This document shows, piece after piece, positions 27,037 to 33,646 of a stretch of DNA of 64,000 nucleotides (position 1 is the first letter of the stretch; each line of letters opens with the position of its first letter). The stretch comes from Gammaproteobacteria bacterium (GTDB lineage Bacteria > Pseudomonadota > Gammaproteobacteria > Pseudomonadales > Cellvibrionaceae). The translations under genes were made by a program, and so were the position numbers. A model generated the notes under the pieces. That model was not told where the DNA came from and did not search any database. It saw nothing but the letters and a program-made list of their open reading frames with translations. The stretch lies in assembly GCA_004173475.1 (NCBI GenBank), contig SEBU01000007.1, forward strand, positions 124,001 through 188,000. The letters run 5' to 3'.

Positions 27037-28323
27037 ATGCTAAACATAGTCATTTATGCATTGGGTACTGGCGGTGATATTGATCCTATGGTTGCGCTTG
27101 GAATTGAGTTAAAGCGCAGAGGGTATAATGTTGCCTTTCTATCAAACGATTATTTTAAGTCAATTGTTGTCGCATCCGGACTTGAATTTGTTTCTGTCGG
27201 CACTATCGATCAATATCATAAAGGCAATAGTGCCGCCGCATGGGAATCAACGAATCACACGGACAACTTCGAACATTATCATGCTCCAGCGTTCGAGCCA
27301 GCGTTTGAGTATGTAAAAAACCTCTCTGCTAAAAATGCGTTGGTTCTCGCGTTAAGTGAAGAAAACGGCGCATCCGTAGCGGCAGAAAAATTCAAAATTT
27401 CTTTTATTAAAATTATTTTATCGCCCAATATAATTTTTTCTGCATCTAAACCTCCAGCTCCCATGAGTTGGGCGATTCCCGCGCGCATTCCTCGCTTCAT
27501 CGTGCGTTTTTTATTGCGCAGGAACCGTAAAACCAAATTCAAAGTTTTGAGCAAAATGCCGCACACTGCTGCCTATAGAGCTACACGCAAACGTTTGCAG
27601 TGCCCGCCGGTGTTTCATACTGAGTCCACAGCTTTACTGCAAATTGGTTTTTTCCCCGAATGGTTTGGAATGCCCGCAGAGGATTGGCCAGAAAATATAA
27701 AACTTGTGGGTTTTCCTTTGCAAAACCGCGCACGTATTGATGTGTGGAAAAAATTGGATGACTTTATTGATCAACAGGGCGCTCCACTGATTTTTACGAC
27801 AGGCACTGGTGTCAGAAATGTTACTGAATTGTTTGAGGAAGGGCGAAAAATTTGCGAGTTATTGCAAGTGCCCGGCGTGTTTGTGGGTGGCAGCGGTGCT
27901 GAACTTTTGCGCGAGTCTGCACTGTGTTCGCATATGGATTACATAGATTTTGAATACGCGCTGCCAAAAGCCTTGGCAATTGTTCACCATGGCGGAATAG
28001 GTACAACAGCGCAGGCAATTAAAGCAGGCGTTCCCCAATTAATTCGGCCCTTAAAATATGACCAGCCAGATAACGCTGATCGCGTTTACAAATTGGGTTT
28101 AGGTACCTATGTAATGCCCGAACGATTTAAAGCGGAACAGGTCGCTCCGATGATTGACACGATGATACAGCAGGCCAAAAATTCTAAAACATTGCGTCAC
28201 TATGCAGCGGATGTTAGCAACAGCAGCGCAATCATGGATGCCTGCGATTTAATTGAGCAAGCGTATAAAACGAAGGAAAAAATATCTGGCGATTTATTGC
28301 AGGAAAATGCGGTGCACTCCTGA
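27037..28323 (+). CDS. GT1-type glycosyltransferase (UGT/sterol-glucosyltransferase-like)
   Basis: A 428-residue GT-B enzyme. The N-terminal acceptor domain begins IVIYALGTGGDIDPMVALG with the GTGGDxxP pattern common in MGT/UGT-type enzymes. The C-terminal donor-binding region is ALAIVHHGGIGTTAQAIKAG followed by a Gln-Asp near KYDQPDNADR, as in the nucleotide-sugar signature. Acceptor unknown; lipids, sterol-like compounds or small aromatics are usual in the family. It begins 18 bases after pyrB on the same strand, so it may be co-transcribed, although no functional link is evident. Confidence 0.88.
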   Translation: MLNIVIYALGTGGDIDPMVALGIELKRRGYNVAFLSNDYFKSIVVASGLEFVSVGTIDQYHKGNSAAAWESTNHTDNFEHYHAPAFEPAFEYVKNLSAKNALVLALSEENGASVAAEKFKISFIKIILSPNIIFSASKPPAPMSWAIPARIPRFIVRFLLRRNRKTKFKVLSKMPHTAAYRATRKRLQCPPVFHTESTALLQIGFFPEWFGMPAEDWPENIKLVGFPLQNRARIDVWKKLDDFIDQQGAPLIFTTGTGVRNVTELFEEGRKICELLQVPGVFVGGSGAELLRESALCSHMDYIDFEYALPKALAIVHHGGIGTTAQAIKAGVPQLIRPLKYDQPDNADRVYKLGLGTYVMPERFKAEQVAPMIDTMIQQAKNSKTLRHYAADVSNSSAIMDACDLIEQAYKTKEKISGDLLQENAVHS

Positions 28324-28451: not shown

Positions 28452-28871
28452 TTAACCGCAAGAAGCCTCTGGGTCAAGATAGTAGGCGGCGTGTTTATCT
28501 TTGTGGCGATACATCCCTAGTAGATGGAATATCCAAGCACCTTTGCGTCCTTCTGTTACTTCCAAAGGTTTCCCAAATAAACCTTCGGCAATAAAATCGA
28601 TTTTCTTCCTATCGTAAGGGTGCGCAAAAGGGCTTTCGCCAGGTGAGTTTTTAACGGGATAAGATGTAAACAAACAACTATTGATCTTATCGCACTTGGT
28701 ATCTTTAGCTACCGCAAACGTTATAGTATCTCCCGGTGCGAATAATTCGGGCATGGTGTTTATCGGAAGTGGATCTTTAGTTGTTAAATCAGTAACCTGA
28801 AAATCGACGTTAGTCACTACTTTTTTTCTAGGTTTTTTATTAAATAATAAAGTAAAACTATAATCAGCCAT
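28452..28871 (-). CDS. unrecognised 139-residue protein downstream of the Ser/Thr kinase
   Basis: I recognise no family. No signal peptide or membrane segment. The sequence looks beta-rich at the start (YSFTLLFNKK, VDFQVTDLTTKDPLPI) with LFAPGDTITFAVAKD, and has two cysteines close together (TKCDKINSC) and one near the end (EASCG). Aromatic and His residues cluster late (IFHLLGMYRHKDKHAAYYLD). AAGGA lies seven bases before its ATG at 28871. It follows the kinase gene by 30 bases on the same strand, so it is almost surely in the same operon and could be a kinase substrate or effector (inference). Confidence 0.7.
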   Translation of the reverse strand: MADYSFTLLFNKKPRKKVVTNVDFQVTDLTTKDPLPINTMPELFAPGDTITFAVAKDTKCDKINSCLFTSYPVKNSPGESPFAHPYDRKKIDFIAEGLFGKPLEVTEGRKGAWIFHLLGMYRHKDKHAAYYLDPEASCG

Positions 28872-28901
28872 CTTATGTTCCTTCTTAGATTATTACGTTA
28901 A

Positions 28902-31175
28902 TTAAAAGGCATTAGTGCTACGGCGCAGATCCAGTAAATCCGGCTCGGCTTCAATTAGCTTTACCGGAAAACCTAGAGCGATTGCTTTGGTAAGCGCCGC
29001 AGTGGCTGCGTTACGTTCACCTAACAACTCATAAGCTAAACCTACACGAAAATGAACACTAGCACTTTTTGGAGCGAGTGCAATTACACGCAATAACATA
29101 GATTTTGCCTGCTCGCGATCATCCAATCGCGCCATATACAATGCCATGCGCGAAATAAGCATGACATCTTCTGGCCTACGCTCTAATTGTGGTGTCAATA
29201 AATCTCGCGCCTTGCGATAGGCTTTATGTGCTTCTGTTTCGCGCCCAGGAATCCAACGCAAGGTGTCTGCCAAATTAGCCCAGGCAAGATAACTGCCTGG
29301 GTTGCCTTTAGTTGGTGATACTGCAGCCTCGAAGGCTGCGGCGGCATTCACATAATCCCCGCGTATAAACAGGGCGTTACCAAGGTTGCCATGTAGCCAA
29401 GCGCTGGAGCGTATCTGTAACCCTTGCTGCAAAATCTGCATGGCTTCATCTGCACGATTTTGACGCTCTAACGCAATGTAGAGGCTGGCATAGGCGTAAA
29501 CGGCATCAGGTTGTAATTGAATACTTAATCGGAAAGCTTTTTCTGCTTCCTTATAGTTATTTAGATCGACATAAATAGTCCCTAATTCATCGGCGAAAAA
29601 ACGCTCCTGGGGAAATTGCTCTAAACCTTGTTGCGCGATCTGAATTGCTTCTTCGTAACGCTGGGCAGAGCGAAGTGCGGAAACTTTACCGCGCCATGCA
29701 AAAATATTCGTGGGCTCAAGTGTAAGTGCTCGTGCAAATGCGGCAAATGCTTTGTCGTGCTCGGCTTTGATCGTAAATACGCGACCCAGTGCAACATGAA
29801 CTAAGGCTAACTGCGTATTTAATTGTAGTGCCTGTTGGGCGCTAGCATCCGCTTTTTGCATCCAGATGGGATCTTCACTGTCACCGCTGTATCTATAGCT
29901 GTAAACCAGTGATAAACCTGCGACGGCAGCAGCGTTGTCTGGAGTGTGTGAAAGAATTCTGTTAAAACTTTTTTCCGCCGTGTCCAGACTGCCAGGTCTA
30001 TCAAATAATTTAAGTGCTTCAAGTCCCTGGTTAAGTTCCATCGCTTGCGAGTAAGGTTTAAGCGGTTCATCTGCAATAAGATTGTCGCTATCTTGCGTTA
30101 ATTGGTGTTGCAGTTGCCATATTAAAGCGCCTGCAAACATCGTGAACGCAACACCAATAAAGACAACGGTTATCCTATTGGTTCGAATATAATCTTTTAA
30201 TCCCTGCACCGCGGATACTTTATTTTTTCTTATGCCAGATTCAAACGTAGAATTTTTTGAATTGCGAATACCTGAATGGCTTATCTGCCCGTGCGATAAA
30301 ACCTCCGTAGTATCGATTTCTACACCTGAATTTAATAAAAGTAGTTGGTAGAGTTTTTCACATTGCGCTGCGACCCAATGCGTATTGGCTGGTCTGTTGT
30401 CAGGATTTTTACTGAGTAATTGGCCCAATAACTCCACAACTTCTGATGGTAAATCCGGATTTGTTTTTGTGGGTGGAATGGGCGGATGAGAAATAATTCG
30501 CTGCATCAATTGCAGTTTATTTTGTGTGTCACCAAACGGATGCACACCGCATAAAAGTTGGTAGGCAAGTATTCCGAATGAAAATAAATCGCTGCGATTA
30601 TCCAATTCTTCACCCATGGCTTGTTCGGGTGACATGGAGCCATAACTTCCCGTAACGTGATCCGTCAGTGTCGCGTTAAAATCTTGCGATTTGGCGATGC
30701 CGAGATCAGTAATCTTGGCGAGCTTGTGTTTGTTAATTAAAATATTTTCAGGCTTTAAATCGCGATGAATAATTCCTGCATCATGCGCAACGGCCAGGCC
30801 TTGTGCGATTTGTGTGAGCCACTGCATACGCTGTGTGAGTGGAACAATATGCTCGCGCAAATGTTGTTGCAGGTTTTGCCCTTCCACATATTCCATAACC
30901 AACGCAAGTTGATCGGATGTTTCAAGATAGTCGTAAATTTGAACAATGTGTGGATGATTGAGTTTGGCAAGCAATAGCGCTTCACGTTTAAATCGTTCGC
31001 GATAATGATTTTCTAATAATTCAGCTCGTAAACATTTGATCGCAACCTGACGATCCAGACGTGAATCGCGTGCGAGATAAACAAGCCCCATACCACCGCG
31101 GCCTATACGGCTGATAATGGAGTAGTGGCCAACCTGCGTTAACTCCGCATTGTTGTGTAAGGGTGATTGTGTCAT
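28902..31175 (-). CDS. transmembrane Ser/Thr protein kinase with TPR repeats
   Basis: PknB-like kinase of 757 residues. The kinase domain (about 17-290) has GRGGMG, catalytic Lys47 in VAIKCL, HRDLKPEN with D139, and DLG (D157) in place of the common DFG, with activation loop ending in SPEQAMG. All catalytic residues are present, so it should be active. One membrane segment (about 335-355, VVFIGVAFTMFAGALIW) follows a polar juxtamembrane stretch. Residues about 370-750 form TPR repeats, placed outside the inner membrane if the topology is normal. It starts 27 bases after the FHA gene. An FHA partner encoded next door suggests phospho-threonine signalling between them. Confidence 0.94.
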   Translation of the reverse strand: MTQSPLHNNAELTQVGHYSIISRIGRGGMGLVYLARDSRLDRQVAIKCLRAELLENHYRERFKREALLLAKLNHPHIVQIYDYLETSDQLALVMEYVEGQNLQQHLREHIVPLTQRMQWLTQIAQGLAVAHDAGIIHRDLKPENILINKHKLAKITDLGIAKSQDFNATLTDHVTGSYGSMSPEQAMGEELDNRSDLFSFGILAYQLLCGVHPFGDTQNKLQLMQRIISHPPIPPTKTNPDLPSEVVELLGQLLSKNPDNRPANTHWVAAQCEKLYQLLLLNSGVEIDTTEVLSHGQISHSGIRNSKNSTFESGIRKNKVSAVQGLKDYIRTNRITVVFIGVAFTMFAGALIWQLQHQLTQDSDNLIADEPLKPYSQAMELNQGLEALKLFDRPGSLDTAEKSFNRILSHTPDNAAAVAGLSLVYSYRYSGDSEDPIWMQKADASAQQALQLNTQLALVHVALGRVFTIKAEHDKAFAAFARALTLEPTNIFAWRGKVSALRSAQRYEEAIQIAQQGLEQFPQERFFADELGTIYVDLNNYKEAEKAFRLSIQLQPDAVYAYASLYIALERQNRADEAMQILQQGLQIRSSAWLHGNLGNALFIRGDYVNAAAAFEAAVSPTKGNPGSYLAWANLADTLRWIPGRETEAHKAYRKARDLLTPQLERRPEDVMLISRMALYMARLDDREQAKSMLLRVIALAPKSASVHFRVGLAYELLGERNAATAALTKAIALGFPVKLIEAEPDLLDLRRSTNAF

Positions 31176-31202
31176 TCGGTTATCGATATTGAGGTTGTGT
31201 GG

Positions 31203-32198
31203 TTACGAAGCTGATTGCGGCGATGCCAGGGTGAGCGAAGCGCCTTTGTATATTTTAAATTTTTCACACCCGAATCGAATTTTACCACTGCGTCTTTCTA
31301 ATAAACATTGTAGTCCGACAACTGTTGGTATGCTGTCAGCGATTTGTTTGCGGAGCCGAAAAATATAAATATTCATGTGTGTCGCATCCAATCCCAATTC
31401 GCTCGCAAGTTGATCGGTGTAAATCCAGCCTTGGCTTTTAATATCCAAACCTCGTGCCGTGTCGGCAGCACGGACGCGAGCGAGATGCGCTAAAAGGTAA
31501 TGATGATTGCGAACCGCCAAATCAATTTTATGTTCGCTGCTGACGAGTTCCAGCTGAGTGCTCTCTTCATCAAGGCTTAAATTAAATACAAATTCCATGT
31601 CGCCTAAATGTTGGGTTTGAAAAATGTGAGCTTCAGTTGGGCCACAAATTTGGGCACGCATGAGCTGCCATTGTGTAGTACCCAGCTGAATTAAATCACC
31701 ATCATTTAATTCGTAAGACATGTGCTCACGTTGAGCATTTAGCATTTCCATTTGCCACTGTTGATGTTGCTCATCAAAATAGATAGCTAATTCCGGCGCG
31801 TTGGTATCAGGCAGGAGGTGGTAACGACTTAGATAAATAGGTTGAGGTGTCGCGCCTGAAACCCCGTCCATTGGCCAAAGCATATCGGCAGGAGGTTCAA
31901 GATCGACAACCTTAAATCCCGGGTCATTTAATTCTGCTAGATGAAATTTGTCGTTCACGCGTAAAACTTGCGATTCATTGCCAGTTGAATTATTAAGCAA
32001 TGTGCCGTTAAACCAGGTTCCGTTTAAACCCAAATTTTTAATTCGCCAATCTTGGCCGTCCCATTCAATGGCAGCATGTAATTTAGAAATATAGGGTTTG
32101 TCGATGCGGGTATCTACTGCATTGGCCAGGCGACCGAAAGTATGATGGGGTGCAAGCGCAATGTATTTGTTGTTGGCGATGTCGAAAATATATGCCAT
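31203..32198 (-). CDS. FHA-domain protein with C-terminal OmpR-type winged helix
   Basis: A 331-residue protein beginning with an FHA phospho-threonine-binding domain: FGRLANAVD, YISKLHAAIEWDG and IKNLGLNGTWFNG give the conserved Gly-Arg, Ser, His, Asn and Asn-Gly residues. A middle segment (110-215) resembles a second, degenerate FHA-like beta sandwich. The C-terminal 90 residues fit a Trans_reg_C winged helix (YTDQLASELG, MNIYIFRLRKQIADSIPT, SGKIRF). The start is uncertain between ATG 32198 and GTG 32210; neither has a good ribosome site. First gene of the kinase operon. It could read the kinase's phosphorylation state and bind DNA (inference). Confidence 0.85.
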   Translation of the reverse strand: MAYIFDIANNKYIALAPHHTFGRLANAVDTRIDKPYISKLHAAIEWDGQDWRIKNLGLNGTWFNGTLLNNSTGNESQVLRVNDKFHLAELNDPGFKVVDLEPPADMLWPMDGVSGATPQPIYLSRYHLLPDTNAPELAIYFDEQHQQWQMEMLNAQREHMSYELNDGDLIQLGTTQWQLMRAQICGPTEAHIFQTQHLGDMEFVFNLSLDEESTQLELVSSEHKIDLAVRNHHYLLAHLARVRAADTARGLDIKSQGWIYTDQLASELGLDATHMNIYIFRLRKQIADSIPTVVGLQCLLERRSGKIRFGCEKFKIYKGASLTLASPQSAS

Positions 32199-32419
32199 AG
32201 GGTAGTGCACACAAGTTTTATAAGTCTAATGAGTGTGTTTAATCCCTTACCGAACTTCCCTAGTCACCTGAATCCACATGTAATAGCGTGTAATGGGCAA
32301 GTGTTTAACAAGCGCATAGATTGCCACAGTCTAGTCAAGGTTTCATCCGTTTATAGGGACGCAGAAGGTCATCAGGGAATTTGCGAACGGGGAAACTCTT
32401 GCTGTTGTGGAGTCAAGCA

Positions 32420-33646
32420 ATGATTTCGGTATTTAAAAACCCTACATCTAATAAGCCGGTCGCTAAAGCGGTATTCGCATTTGATGAGCAATCGGGTGCG
32501 AAATGGGTGCCCCTCAATAAAAGTTTTATTACGCTTGCTAAAATTATTTTGCAATCTGCCTCTGAACGTATGGGCATAAAAAGTATTGCAATAACCTTAC
32601 GCTGCATTACCCACCAAGGTTACCGCCACTTGTTACTGGCTGACGAAGTTCACGAAACAACCGCTACCGCGTTCGGTTCTATCGAAGAATTTATTATCTC
32701 CAATGAAGATTCATTGACGCCCAGAAATGAACGCTTTAGTGATGTAGATTGCGTTTCTGTGCCGCTGGATTATCAAGGGCATCGCCTGGGGTATGTCCTA
32801 GCTACTTTGCCCACGTCCAATTTTATAGGGCAACTTAATACGCCGTCCGCTCGTTCTATTGAAGCTGGGCTCCATCTTGTGGAGAGCGAAATAGGGTCAA
32901 TCATCACTCGTTACCAAACGCGCTATCGCGCTATTTTTATTTATGGAGACCAAGGCTACTGGATTGGGAATAGTTTGGCGTTACGGCAATTGGATAAACG
33001 CATCGAACAATTGAAGGAAATTACCAAGCCCATATTGATTCGCGGAAATAAGGGCACCGGAAAAATTATTGCGGCTCGTAGTATCCATTGCTCTCGTCAT
33101 AAAGGCATTTTGCCATTTATTGAATCGTCTTGTAATGAATGGGAGGAGGGCGCTGCCGCCAGTATTTTGCAAGCGCTCTATGCCTATGCAAAAGGCGGGA
33201 CCTTGTATTTGCGAAATATAGATACTTTGTCCGCAGACAATTTTCGCGTGCTTCAACGCTTTTGGGTCACGATAAGGCAAGAATTGGAAATTAAAGGAAC
33301 CAGTGAATCTGTGTCTATTATTTTCTCCGTAAGTCGTAAGCACTATGCGACCAATACGACCAATGCCGGCGACATAGGAGAATGGTTAAAAACAAATACG
33401 GTAGACCTTGTCCTGCCAGATTTAGCCGAACGACGGGAGGATTTACGTGATCTGGTCGCTTTTTATATTCGTGACTACGCACTTTCAGTTGAATTCGATT
33501 TTACGGATCACGCTTGGCGTTTACTGGAAGCATTTAGTTGGCGAGAAAATGTGGCCCAATTAAAACGTGTTATTCAAAAAGTCGCTTTGGTGACGGAAGA
33601 ACCCCTAATACCCGTCGGTTTATTAGAACCCTTGCTTAAGGATTAG
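32420..33646 (+). CDS. degenerate sigma54-activator-like AAA+ protein
   Basis: A 408-residue protein resembling an NtrC-type enhancer-binding protein that has lost its activity motifs. The N-terminal 180 residues may be a GAF-like sensor. Walker A survives as RGNKGTGKIIAA, but the region where GAFTGA should contact sigma54 is deleted, Walker B reads GGTLYLRNID in place of GGTLFLDEI, the arginine-finger segment is unrecognisable, and sensor II is WRENVAQL in place of WPGNVREL. There is no C-terminal Fis-type DNA-binding domain. ATG 32420 is supported by GGAG at 32409-32412. It is divergent from the FHA-kinase operon. Probably a regulatory adaptor, not a transcription ATPase. Confidence 0.82.
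   Translation: MISVFKNPTSNKPVAKAVFAFDEQSGAKWVPLNKSFITLAKIILQSASERMGIKSIAITLRCITHQGYRHLLLADEVHETTATAFGSIEEFIISNEDSLTPRNERFSDVDCVSVPLDYQGHRLGYVLATLPTSNFIGQLNTPSARSIEAGLHLVESEIGSIITRYQTRYRAIFIYGDQGYWIGNSLALRQLDKRIEQLKEITKPILIRGNKGTGKIIAARSIHCSRHKGILPFIESSCNEWEEGAAASILQALYAYAKGGTLYLRNIDTLSADNFRVLQRFWVTIRQELEIKGTSESVSIIFSVSRKHYATNTTNAGDIGEWLKTNTVDLVLPDLAERREDLRDLVAFYIRDYALSVEFDFTDHAWRLLEAFSWRENVAQLKRVIQKVALVTEEPLIPVGLLEPLLKD

Follow-up and report, generated by a model that had tools for sequence, protein, structure and literature searches.

How may a bacterial Ser/Thr kinase pass a signal to an FHA protein encoded next to it, and which promoters would receive that signal? Many bacteria encode Ser/Thr kinase-FHA pairs, but to our knowledge few of these pairs have known promoters. 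The question is raised here by a locus of a gammaproteobacterium of the Cellvibrionaceae (GenBank assembly GCA_004173475.1, contig SEBU01000007.1). We have analysed positions 124,001 to 188,000 of this contig, a stretch of 64,000 nucleotides that we call the window, in which the genes of an FHA protein, a Hanks-type kinase and a 139-residue protein form a leftward row with intergenic gaps of ~30 bases, and the gene of an AAA+ protein runs rightward, divergent from that row. A sequence-only reading had placed four genes in divergent units here and had taken them for a self-contained phospho-signalling system with an unknown output. All four open reading frames (ORFs) are found in the window, and our results suggest, with a probability of about two in three, that they belong to a kinase-FHA switch built like EmbR/PknH of Mycobacterium tuberculosis, with a dispersed regulon defined by a predicted operator. 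The features concerned are:

31203..32198, minus strand: FHA protein with a putative C-terminal winged-helix part (Pfam FHA; the listed ORF extends to 32210)
28902..31175, minus strand: Hanks-type Ser/Thr kinase with a juxtamembrane linker, one predicted membrane helix and C-terminal tetratricopeptide repeats (TPRs) (Pkinase and TPR families)
30297..30314, minus strand: candidate phospho-Thr docking motif DTTEVL (T-x-x-aliphatic) in the juxtamembrane part of the kinase
28452..28871, minus strand: 139-residue orphan protein without a family, last gene of the FHA-kinase row and swappable cassette gene
32423..33646, plus strand: AAA+ protein resembling a degenerate bacterial enhancer-binding protein (bEBP) (Sigma54_activ_2; the listed ORF begins at TTG 32381)
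32279..32294, plus strand: predicted operator of the FHA protein, TGTAATAGCGTGTAAT, aligned in 21 Cellvibrio intergenic regions
32317..32322, plus strand: -10-like TAGATT, 22 nt past the second repeat, towards the AAA+ gene

The small-protein and kinase genes are given with the limits of their listed ORFs, 28452-28871 and 28902-31175 (both minus strand). For the FHA and AAA+ genes, listed as 31203-32210 (minus) and 32381-33646 (plus), alignment of orthologues points to likely starts at ATG 32198 and ATG 32423, respectively.

A direct repeat accompanies the FHA gene

In the window and in 20 Cellvibrio relatives, the region between the FHA and AAA+ genes contains the direct repeat TGTAAT-N4-TGTAAT, with a TATAGAT-like box behind it. 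Of these 21 regions, 18 have the exact repeat and three a repeat with one mismatch. The repeat is also found beside FHA, kinase or DP-EP genes (the last a Pfam family described below) in Pseudoalteromonas, in Microbulbifer and in a metagenome-assembled genome of SAR324. Among 36 dereplicated sites, which were not selected for a -10 box, the pattern TANNNT lies exactly 22 nt past the repeat in 19 and 21 nt past it in four; the next commonest spacing, 32 nt (5/36), is the one that tripled repeats would give. In the usual promoter geometry the second repeat would fall at the -35 box, and such a position suits activation. A sigma54 promoter in the same intergenic region was considered and rejected, as the GG-to-GC spacing varies in an alignment judged by eye. 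Tripled repeats of the TGTAAT/TGTGAT type were seen separately in 11 Microbulbifer loci (L112, L114, L115, L119, L127, L129, L130, L132, L137, L139, L147), where they lie ~520-680 bases upstream of a DP-EP-like gene, leaving a long leader with no obvious gene.

That this element belongs to the FHA protein is suggested by their co-occurrence. The FHA protein is encoded in 91 of 144 genomes of the family, including all 21 of the genus Cellvibrio. The repeat with a -10 box is present in 70 of these 91 genomes and in 2 of the 53 that lack the FHA gene (Fisher p=4e-19), with 151 and 2 sites in total, while a control search with the reversed pattern gave eight sites, five in genomes with the gene and three in genomes without it. 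The same is seen within single genera: in g13 (Gilvimarinus), three sites are found in each of the four genomes with the FHA gene and none in the four without it, and in g18 the element occurs in the one genome with the gene and in none of three without. Among 369 genomes of the class, all five that encode the FHA protein (E<=1e-20) have two or three sites, whereas among the other 364 there are 13 with one site and no genome with two.

A one-mismatch repeat at 29083-29098 lies upstream of the small gene and inside the kinase coding sequence, and relatives have it with one or two mismatches. It probably reflects coding conservation, and such near-operators were not counted owing to this position.

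The FHA protein and the kinase

The sequence-only reading had seen in the FHA protein a phospho-threonine reader with a DNA-binding-like domain. Its first half is borne out, as the Pfam FHA domain is matched with E=1.4e-13 (51.5 bits against a cut-off of 20.7) and is found in 26/26 aligned homologues, among which S41, H44, N62 and G63 are invariant and R26 is nearly so; we take these residues to contact phosphothreonine. The second half is less clear, the C-terminal part giving no clear profile match.

The kinase was correctly described as a membrane kinase with TPR repeats. It matches Pkinase (E=4.7e-56) and TPR families in Pfam, contains VAIK, HRDLK, DLG and GSxxxMSPEQ, and has one predicted membrane helix by hydropathy; its C-terminal TPR part is probably periplasmic. 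HRDLK is present in 105 of 117 homologous kinase ORFs scanned. How the FHA protein might dock on the kinase is suggested by the juxtamembrane linker: T-x-x-[ILVMF] occurs in 47 of 51 dereplicated linkers, where 27.9 would be expected by shuffling, while the controls S+3, T+2 and T+4 show no excess, and neither does T-x-x-D. In the window kinase, DTTEVL is the best candidate for such a docking motif. As a side observation, two or three kinase genes stand in tandem after the FHA gene at L065, L069, L072, L099 and L106, which are Microbulbifer and Pseudoteredinibacter-type loci.

A conserved unit with a degenerate AAA+ protein

The FHA and AAA+ genes are neighbours in 21/21 Cellvibrio genomes and are divergent in the window and in the 20 other loci fetched. 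The kinase gene adjoins the FHA gene in all of these loci (a contig end cuts it in L047) and also in many, but not all, of the loci outside Cellvibrio. The unit adjoins MscS and rnf genes in five Cellvibrio genomes, including that of the window, and a lysA/dapF-like gene row (named by eye) in 13 others. Since the flanks differ between genomes, the FHA, kinase and AAA+ genes have been kept together through a move. The 139-residue protein does not share this constancy. Its gene is found in 11 of the 144 family genomes, ten of them Cellvibrio (10/21), and, in a sample of 390 genomes of the order, only in that of the window. Thus the self-contained system of four genes that had been proposed holds for three of them, and the small gene comes and goes.

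The AAA+ protein matches Sigma54_activ_2 (E=1.2e-12) and was found in 21/21 Cellvibrio genomes and in none of the 123 other genomes of the family (E<=1e-30). Canonical bEBPs have Walker B acids D-E, a GAFTGA loop and the arginine-finger motif FRxDLYYRL. In the 17 of the 21 Cellvibrio orthologues that were aligned (four rows were dropped), the Walker A GxGK is retained throughout, with the first Gly changed to Ala in eight, and the Walker B acids are replaced by R-N in all. GAFTGA and FRxDLYYRL are missing from the aligned orthologues, and the alignment shows no C-terminal helix-turn-helix, the protein ending at the lid domain. The regulator was thus rightly called degenerate, and its sequence identifies it as a conserved pseudo-enzyme that is likely to be incapable of ATP hydrolysis or of sigma54 engagement. 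Its gene is split into two ORFs in one genome (G024); as it is present in all 21 Cellvibrio genomes, it is not a generally decaying gene.

Predicted targets of the operator

The output of the system had been left unknown; given its co-occurrence with the FHA gene, the predicted operator suggests an output at the AAA+ gene and at dispersed operons. In the genome of the window there are two exact sites with a -10 box, one being the AAA+ promoter and the other lying 47 bases before an operon for a chaperone-usher pilus, with genes for spore-coat-U, a PapD-like chaperone and an usher. The 21 Cellvibrio genomes together have 52 sites with a -10 box (one with the reversed pattern), of which 18 are AAA+ promoters and 34 lie elsewhere. 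We fetched 31 of these 34, and 28 had a usable downstream operon (3 dropped). Their products include Wadjet (JetA, JetB, JetC), Septu (PtuA, PtuB) and Qat (QatA, QatB) defence systems and the candidate systems PDC-M01 and PDC-S06, together with lectin-like, PIN, HNH, DUF4238 and secreted proteins.

Whether defence genes are in excess was assessed with PADLOC profiles. Strong matches (E<=1e-15) are found in at least 5/28 target operons and 1/21 control operons, a difference that is not significant (p=0.22). Counted by protein, the figures are at least 10/51 and 1/36 (p=0.02), where proteins encoded in the same operon do not count as independent. All 51 target proteins were scanned, and the 10 proteins and 5 operons, which come from the best 25 of 117 families, are lower bounds; 20 target proteins that were scanned singly had been picked by eye as defence-like. 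The controls are 20 Cellvibrio stretches, most of which lie 100 kb away from a target; 21 operons and 36 proteins came from 15 of these stretches.

Of the 101 sites outside Cellvibrio we read 52, in 50 stretches. At four Microbulbifer loci (L248, L253, L259 and L264, with L253 profiled) the site is followed by PspA or flotillin genes; at L259 and L264 a called overlapping ORF contains the site. Giant proteins of the fn3/SpvB/FG-GAP type occur at several Microbulbifer target loci, two of them profiled (L254, L272) and the others judged by their opening sequence. Taken together, the targets are suggestive of a shared theme of conflict and envelope stress.

Several arrangements at single loci are recorded for their own sake. 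A recombinase-type gene begins 32 bases after the operator in Microbulbifer L257 (Pfam Phage_integrase with a SAM-like domain) and L246 (judged by similarity of the opening sequence). At L243 (G040, another genus) the operator is upstream of a contractile-sheath-type row with Phage_sheath_1C in the third gene. In four Cellvibrio genomes (L209, L226, L227, L235) it precedes a gene of 148 codons, matched to PG_binding_1 in L209. What follows this gene differs among L226, L227 and L235 (DUF4238; PDC-S06; by eye, a membrane and an AAA protein), and the fourth contig ends there. An insertion hot spot behind the promoter of this gene is possible.

A proposed exchangeable input cassette

Two forms of the kinase are found in Cellvibrio, with a common catalytic domain and a different part after the membrane helix. 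The short form (~760 residues) pairs with the 139-residue protein gene and with a GT28-like gene in 10/21 Cellvibrio loci and in L062 of another genus, and the small gene is always with this form (the window and all 10 other loci having the gene). The long form (~890 residues) pairs with a convergent gene of ~195 codons in another 10/21, and one contig is too short to assign. In the 10 fetched loci that carry the small gene, the GT28-like gene lies next to it; in the window the GT28-like gene is

27037..28323, plus strand: GT28-like glycosyltransferase, convergent, which goes with the short-kinase/small-gene cassette (EryCIII-like_C, E=1.6e-14)

The ~195-residue protein belongs to Pfam DP-EP (E=5.7e-18 in L048, with 9/10 above the cut-off). 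In other genera, too, DP-EP-like small genes adjoin the kinase gene at many loci. Of the 19 DP-EP genes in the Cellvibrionaceae genomes, 15 are no more than 10 kb away from an FHA gene. A TonB-receptor-type gene is near all 10 long-form loci (profiled in L048 only), and the short-form locus L044 has one too.

The form of the cassette changes five times on the tree of FHA proteins, with three changes forced by starred branches (bootstrap 4-6), and five times on the tree of kinase domains. L046 and L051 have closely similar FHA proteins, the former with the short form and the latter with the long one. The sensor half of the kinase and the small (or DP-EP) gene are thus exchanged together, and we infer that they form an input cassette.

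The 139-residue protein was rightly left unnamed, as it has no Pfam (E<=1) or NCBIfam match. Its model is poor, with a mean predicted local distance difference test (pLDDT) score of 57, and gives no fold match at E<=0.001. With a pI of 8.4 and a net charge of +2 it is not acidic, and a role as DNA mimic is not supported. A relationship to DP-EP is unproven (profile-profile probability 0.8% against a DP-EP-type set). L23-like matches of its profile in the Protein Data Bank (PDB; best E=0.0075) and plastocyanin-like Pfam matches in 2/10 members (best E=0.0052) were taken as chance.

Profile searches name pyrB, the GT28-like gene, MscS and rnf genes as the flanks of the window locus. Farther away, a 508-residue ORF at 22999-24525 matches GlpK (glycerol kinase) over residues 5-267 only, under the curated cut-off.

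Proposed mechanism and alternative explanations

We propose that a signal would be received by the C-terminal half of the kinase, probably in the periplasm, and that the cytoplasmic kinase would then phosphorylate its juxtamembrane linker at Thr residues, and possibly also the FHA protein. The FHA protein would dock on the kinase through its FHA domain, bind the TGTAAT-N4-TGTAAT repeats, which stand in for a -35 box, and activate the promoters behind them. In the genome of the window these would be the promoter of the divergent pseudo-AAA+ gene and that of at least one distant operon, the chaperone-usher pilus, while in relatives other accessory operons could be among the targets. The AAA+ protein would be a Cellvibrio-specific target and a probable feedback partner, and the sensor half of the kinase with the small (or DP-EP) gene would form the exchangeable input cassette. 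A 16-bp predicted operator with a preferred geometry would make the regulon of this FHA-protein family readable from genomes.

A number of points weigh against this mechanism. In the FHA protein, it is the proposed DNA-binding part that has no clear Pfam match (weak matches in single members, HTH_29 at E=0.01 in 1/26) and no match in a profile search of the PDB; when its profile is compared with five E. coli OmpR-family domains, the recognition-helix region alone aligns, at 2-3% hhalign probability, against 0.1% for an unrelated control profile. For the operator, 21 of the 91 family genomes with the FHA gene lack the exact element with a -10 box, the genomes counted for co-occurrence are related, and the five positive genomes of the class include three of a single genus and that of the window itself. 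The form TANNNT was chosen after some of the 36 sites had been seen. In the genome of the window, five exact repeats are found when no -10 box is required, against two of the reversed pattern, and 25 sites with a -10 box when up to two mismatches are allowed, against 15 of the control; sites at two mismatches, being near the control level, were not used. As for docking, the T+1 control of the linkers is enriched too (43 against 29.1 expected), related linkers are not independent, the 51 linkers are what dereplication left of 80, and a usable linker is missing in 37 of the 117 kinase ORFs.

The weakness of the C-terminal match leaves room for an explanation in which the TGTAAT repeats are read by another response regulator of the OmpR/PhoB type that tends to occur in the same genomes as the FHA gene, with the FHA protein as no more than a phospho-adaptor. 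Direct repeats with a 10-bp period near the -35 position fit OmpR/PhoB proteins in general. However, the element follows the FHA gene within two genera, is present in all positive genomes of the class and adjoins the FHA gene in several genera, and we regard such a separate reader as unlikely. The alternative that we take most seriously, with a nearly even chance of being right, concerns the targets: the FHA protein may be a transcription factor that simply controls accessory genes without a common theme, and defence operons may be among these only because they are abundant in accessory DNA. It is consistent with the mixture of products (pili and lectin-like, PIN and HNH proteins by Pfam; tyrosinase-like, peptidase-like and secreted ones by eye) and with the non-significant excess of PADLOC matches by operon, but is at odds with the recurrence of envelope-stress and antagonism-like genes in Microbulbifer, with PspA or flotillin at four loci and the giant proteins at several. 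The opposite view would be a danger response, in which a kinase with an exchangeable sensor cassette, an FHA factor and a dedicated operator drive acquired anti-phage, antagonism and envelope-repair genes in Cellvibrionaceae and beyond. We put this forward tentatively, as a rather doubtful extension of the kinase-FHA switch. If defence and antagonism operons are targets, it would amount to a kinase pathway controlling acquired immune systems in trans.

Two further explanations concern the kinase itself. Kinase-FHA pairs and bEBPs are both known from type VI secretion loci, and the AAA+ protein could then be the remnant of a sigma54 activator of secretion genes. The sequence-only reading had already found no type VI genes nearby, in agreement with our annotation, in which the named flanking genes include no secretion gene, not every ORF of the window being annotated; moreover, the AAA+ protein has neither a helix-turn-helix nor the GAFTGA loop, and in our reading of the target loci, with partial profiling, we recognised no type VI operon. 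We find this origin scarcely credible. It is also conceivable that, instead of a sensor cassette, the kinase and the small or DP-EP protein are a kinase-toxin and its antidote, like the kinase-kinase-phosphatase (KKP) module, a defence module built on kinases (PMC11341870). That the small gene and the kinase half swap together, as addiction-like pairs often do, would fit this explanation. Exchange is equally expected of a sensor and its ligand protein, however, the kinase belongs to a conserved row with a regulator, and no phosphatase is among the named flanking genes, in which no dedicated search for one was made. An addiction pair is therefore very unlikely in our view, and we retain the kinase-FHA switch with its dispersed regulon.

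Comparison with known systems

Searches of the open-licence literature that combined FHA, winged helix and kinase with Cellvibrio or Pseudoalteromonas found no paper, and among the matches listed for FHA, transcription factor, phage defence and threonine kinase none was on the present system. Searches for DP-EP, PF08985, SO1698 and an aspartic peptidase found no paper in that literature either.

The DP-EP family (PF08985), in or near which the convergent gene of 10/21 Cellvibrio loci and of other genera falls, has a structure in 3njh (SO1698), and the modelled fold of a DP-EP protein matches it (pLDDT 84, E=3e-6). The next-best fold matches are PixA/AidA entries (4pib, 4lzk), with low TM-scores of 0.23-0.35 by query; a member of that group, Bnr1 of Burkholderia cenocepacia, is called a proposed DNA mimic in a passage of PMC9060813. 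The 139-residue protein of the window shares with DP-EP only a D-P motif near the C-terminus, and DP-EP is not detectable in it.

Among solved structures, the AAA+ core comes closest to those of NtrC-type bEBPs (NtrC-family entry 1ny6, E=4e-23) and of VpsR (7v2b, E=1e-21). The protein of the window differs from both in having no Walker B acids, as in all 17 aligned orthologues, and no C-terminal helix-turn-helix.

The KKP module ties Ser/Thr kinases to phage defence, and its abstract names no FHA transcription factor and no operator-defined regulon (PMC11341870). The window locus differs from it also in its named flanking genes, which include no phosphatase, no dedicated search having been made.

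The closest described parallel known to us is EmbR/PknH of M. tuberculosis. In the passages of PMC9239209 on this pair, a kinase and an FHA transcription factor are adjacent, the FHA domain docks to the kinase, EmbR has an OmpR/PhoB-like winged DNA-binding domain, and phosphorylation of EmbR was not found in vivo under normal growth. In the window a Ser/Thr kinase and an FHA regulator are likewise encoded side by side. However, the window family has its FHA domain N-terminal and its proposed DNA-binding part, without a clear profile match, C-terminal, and no bacterial transcriptional activation domain (BTAD) was detected among the families of its 26 members at E<=1; for this last reason the protein is not filed as an EmbR orthologue. 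By analogy, then, the system of the window would work like EmbR/PknH without being orthologous to it, and to that plan it adds an AAA+ protein, a small or DP-EP gene, an exchangeable sensor cassette and a predicted dispersed regulon with a defined repeat.

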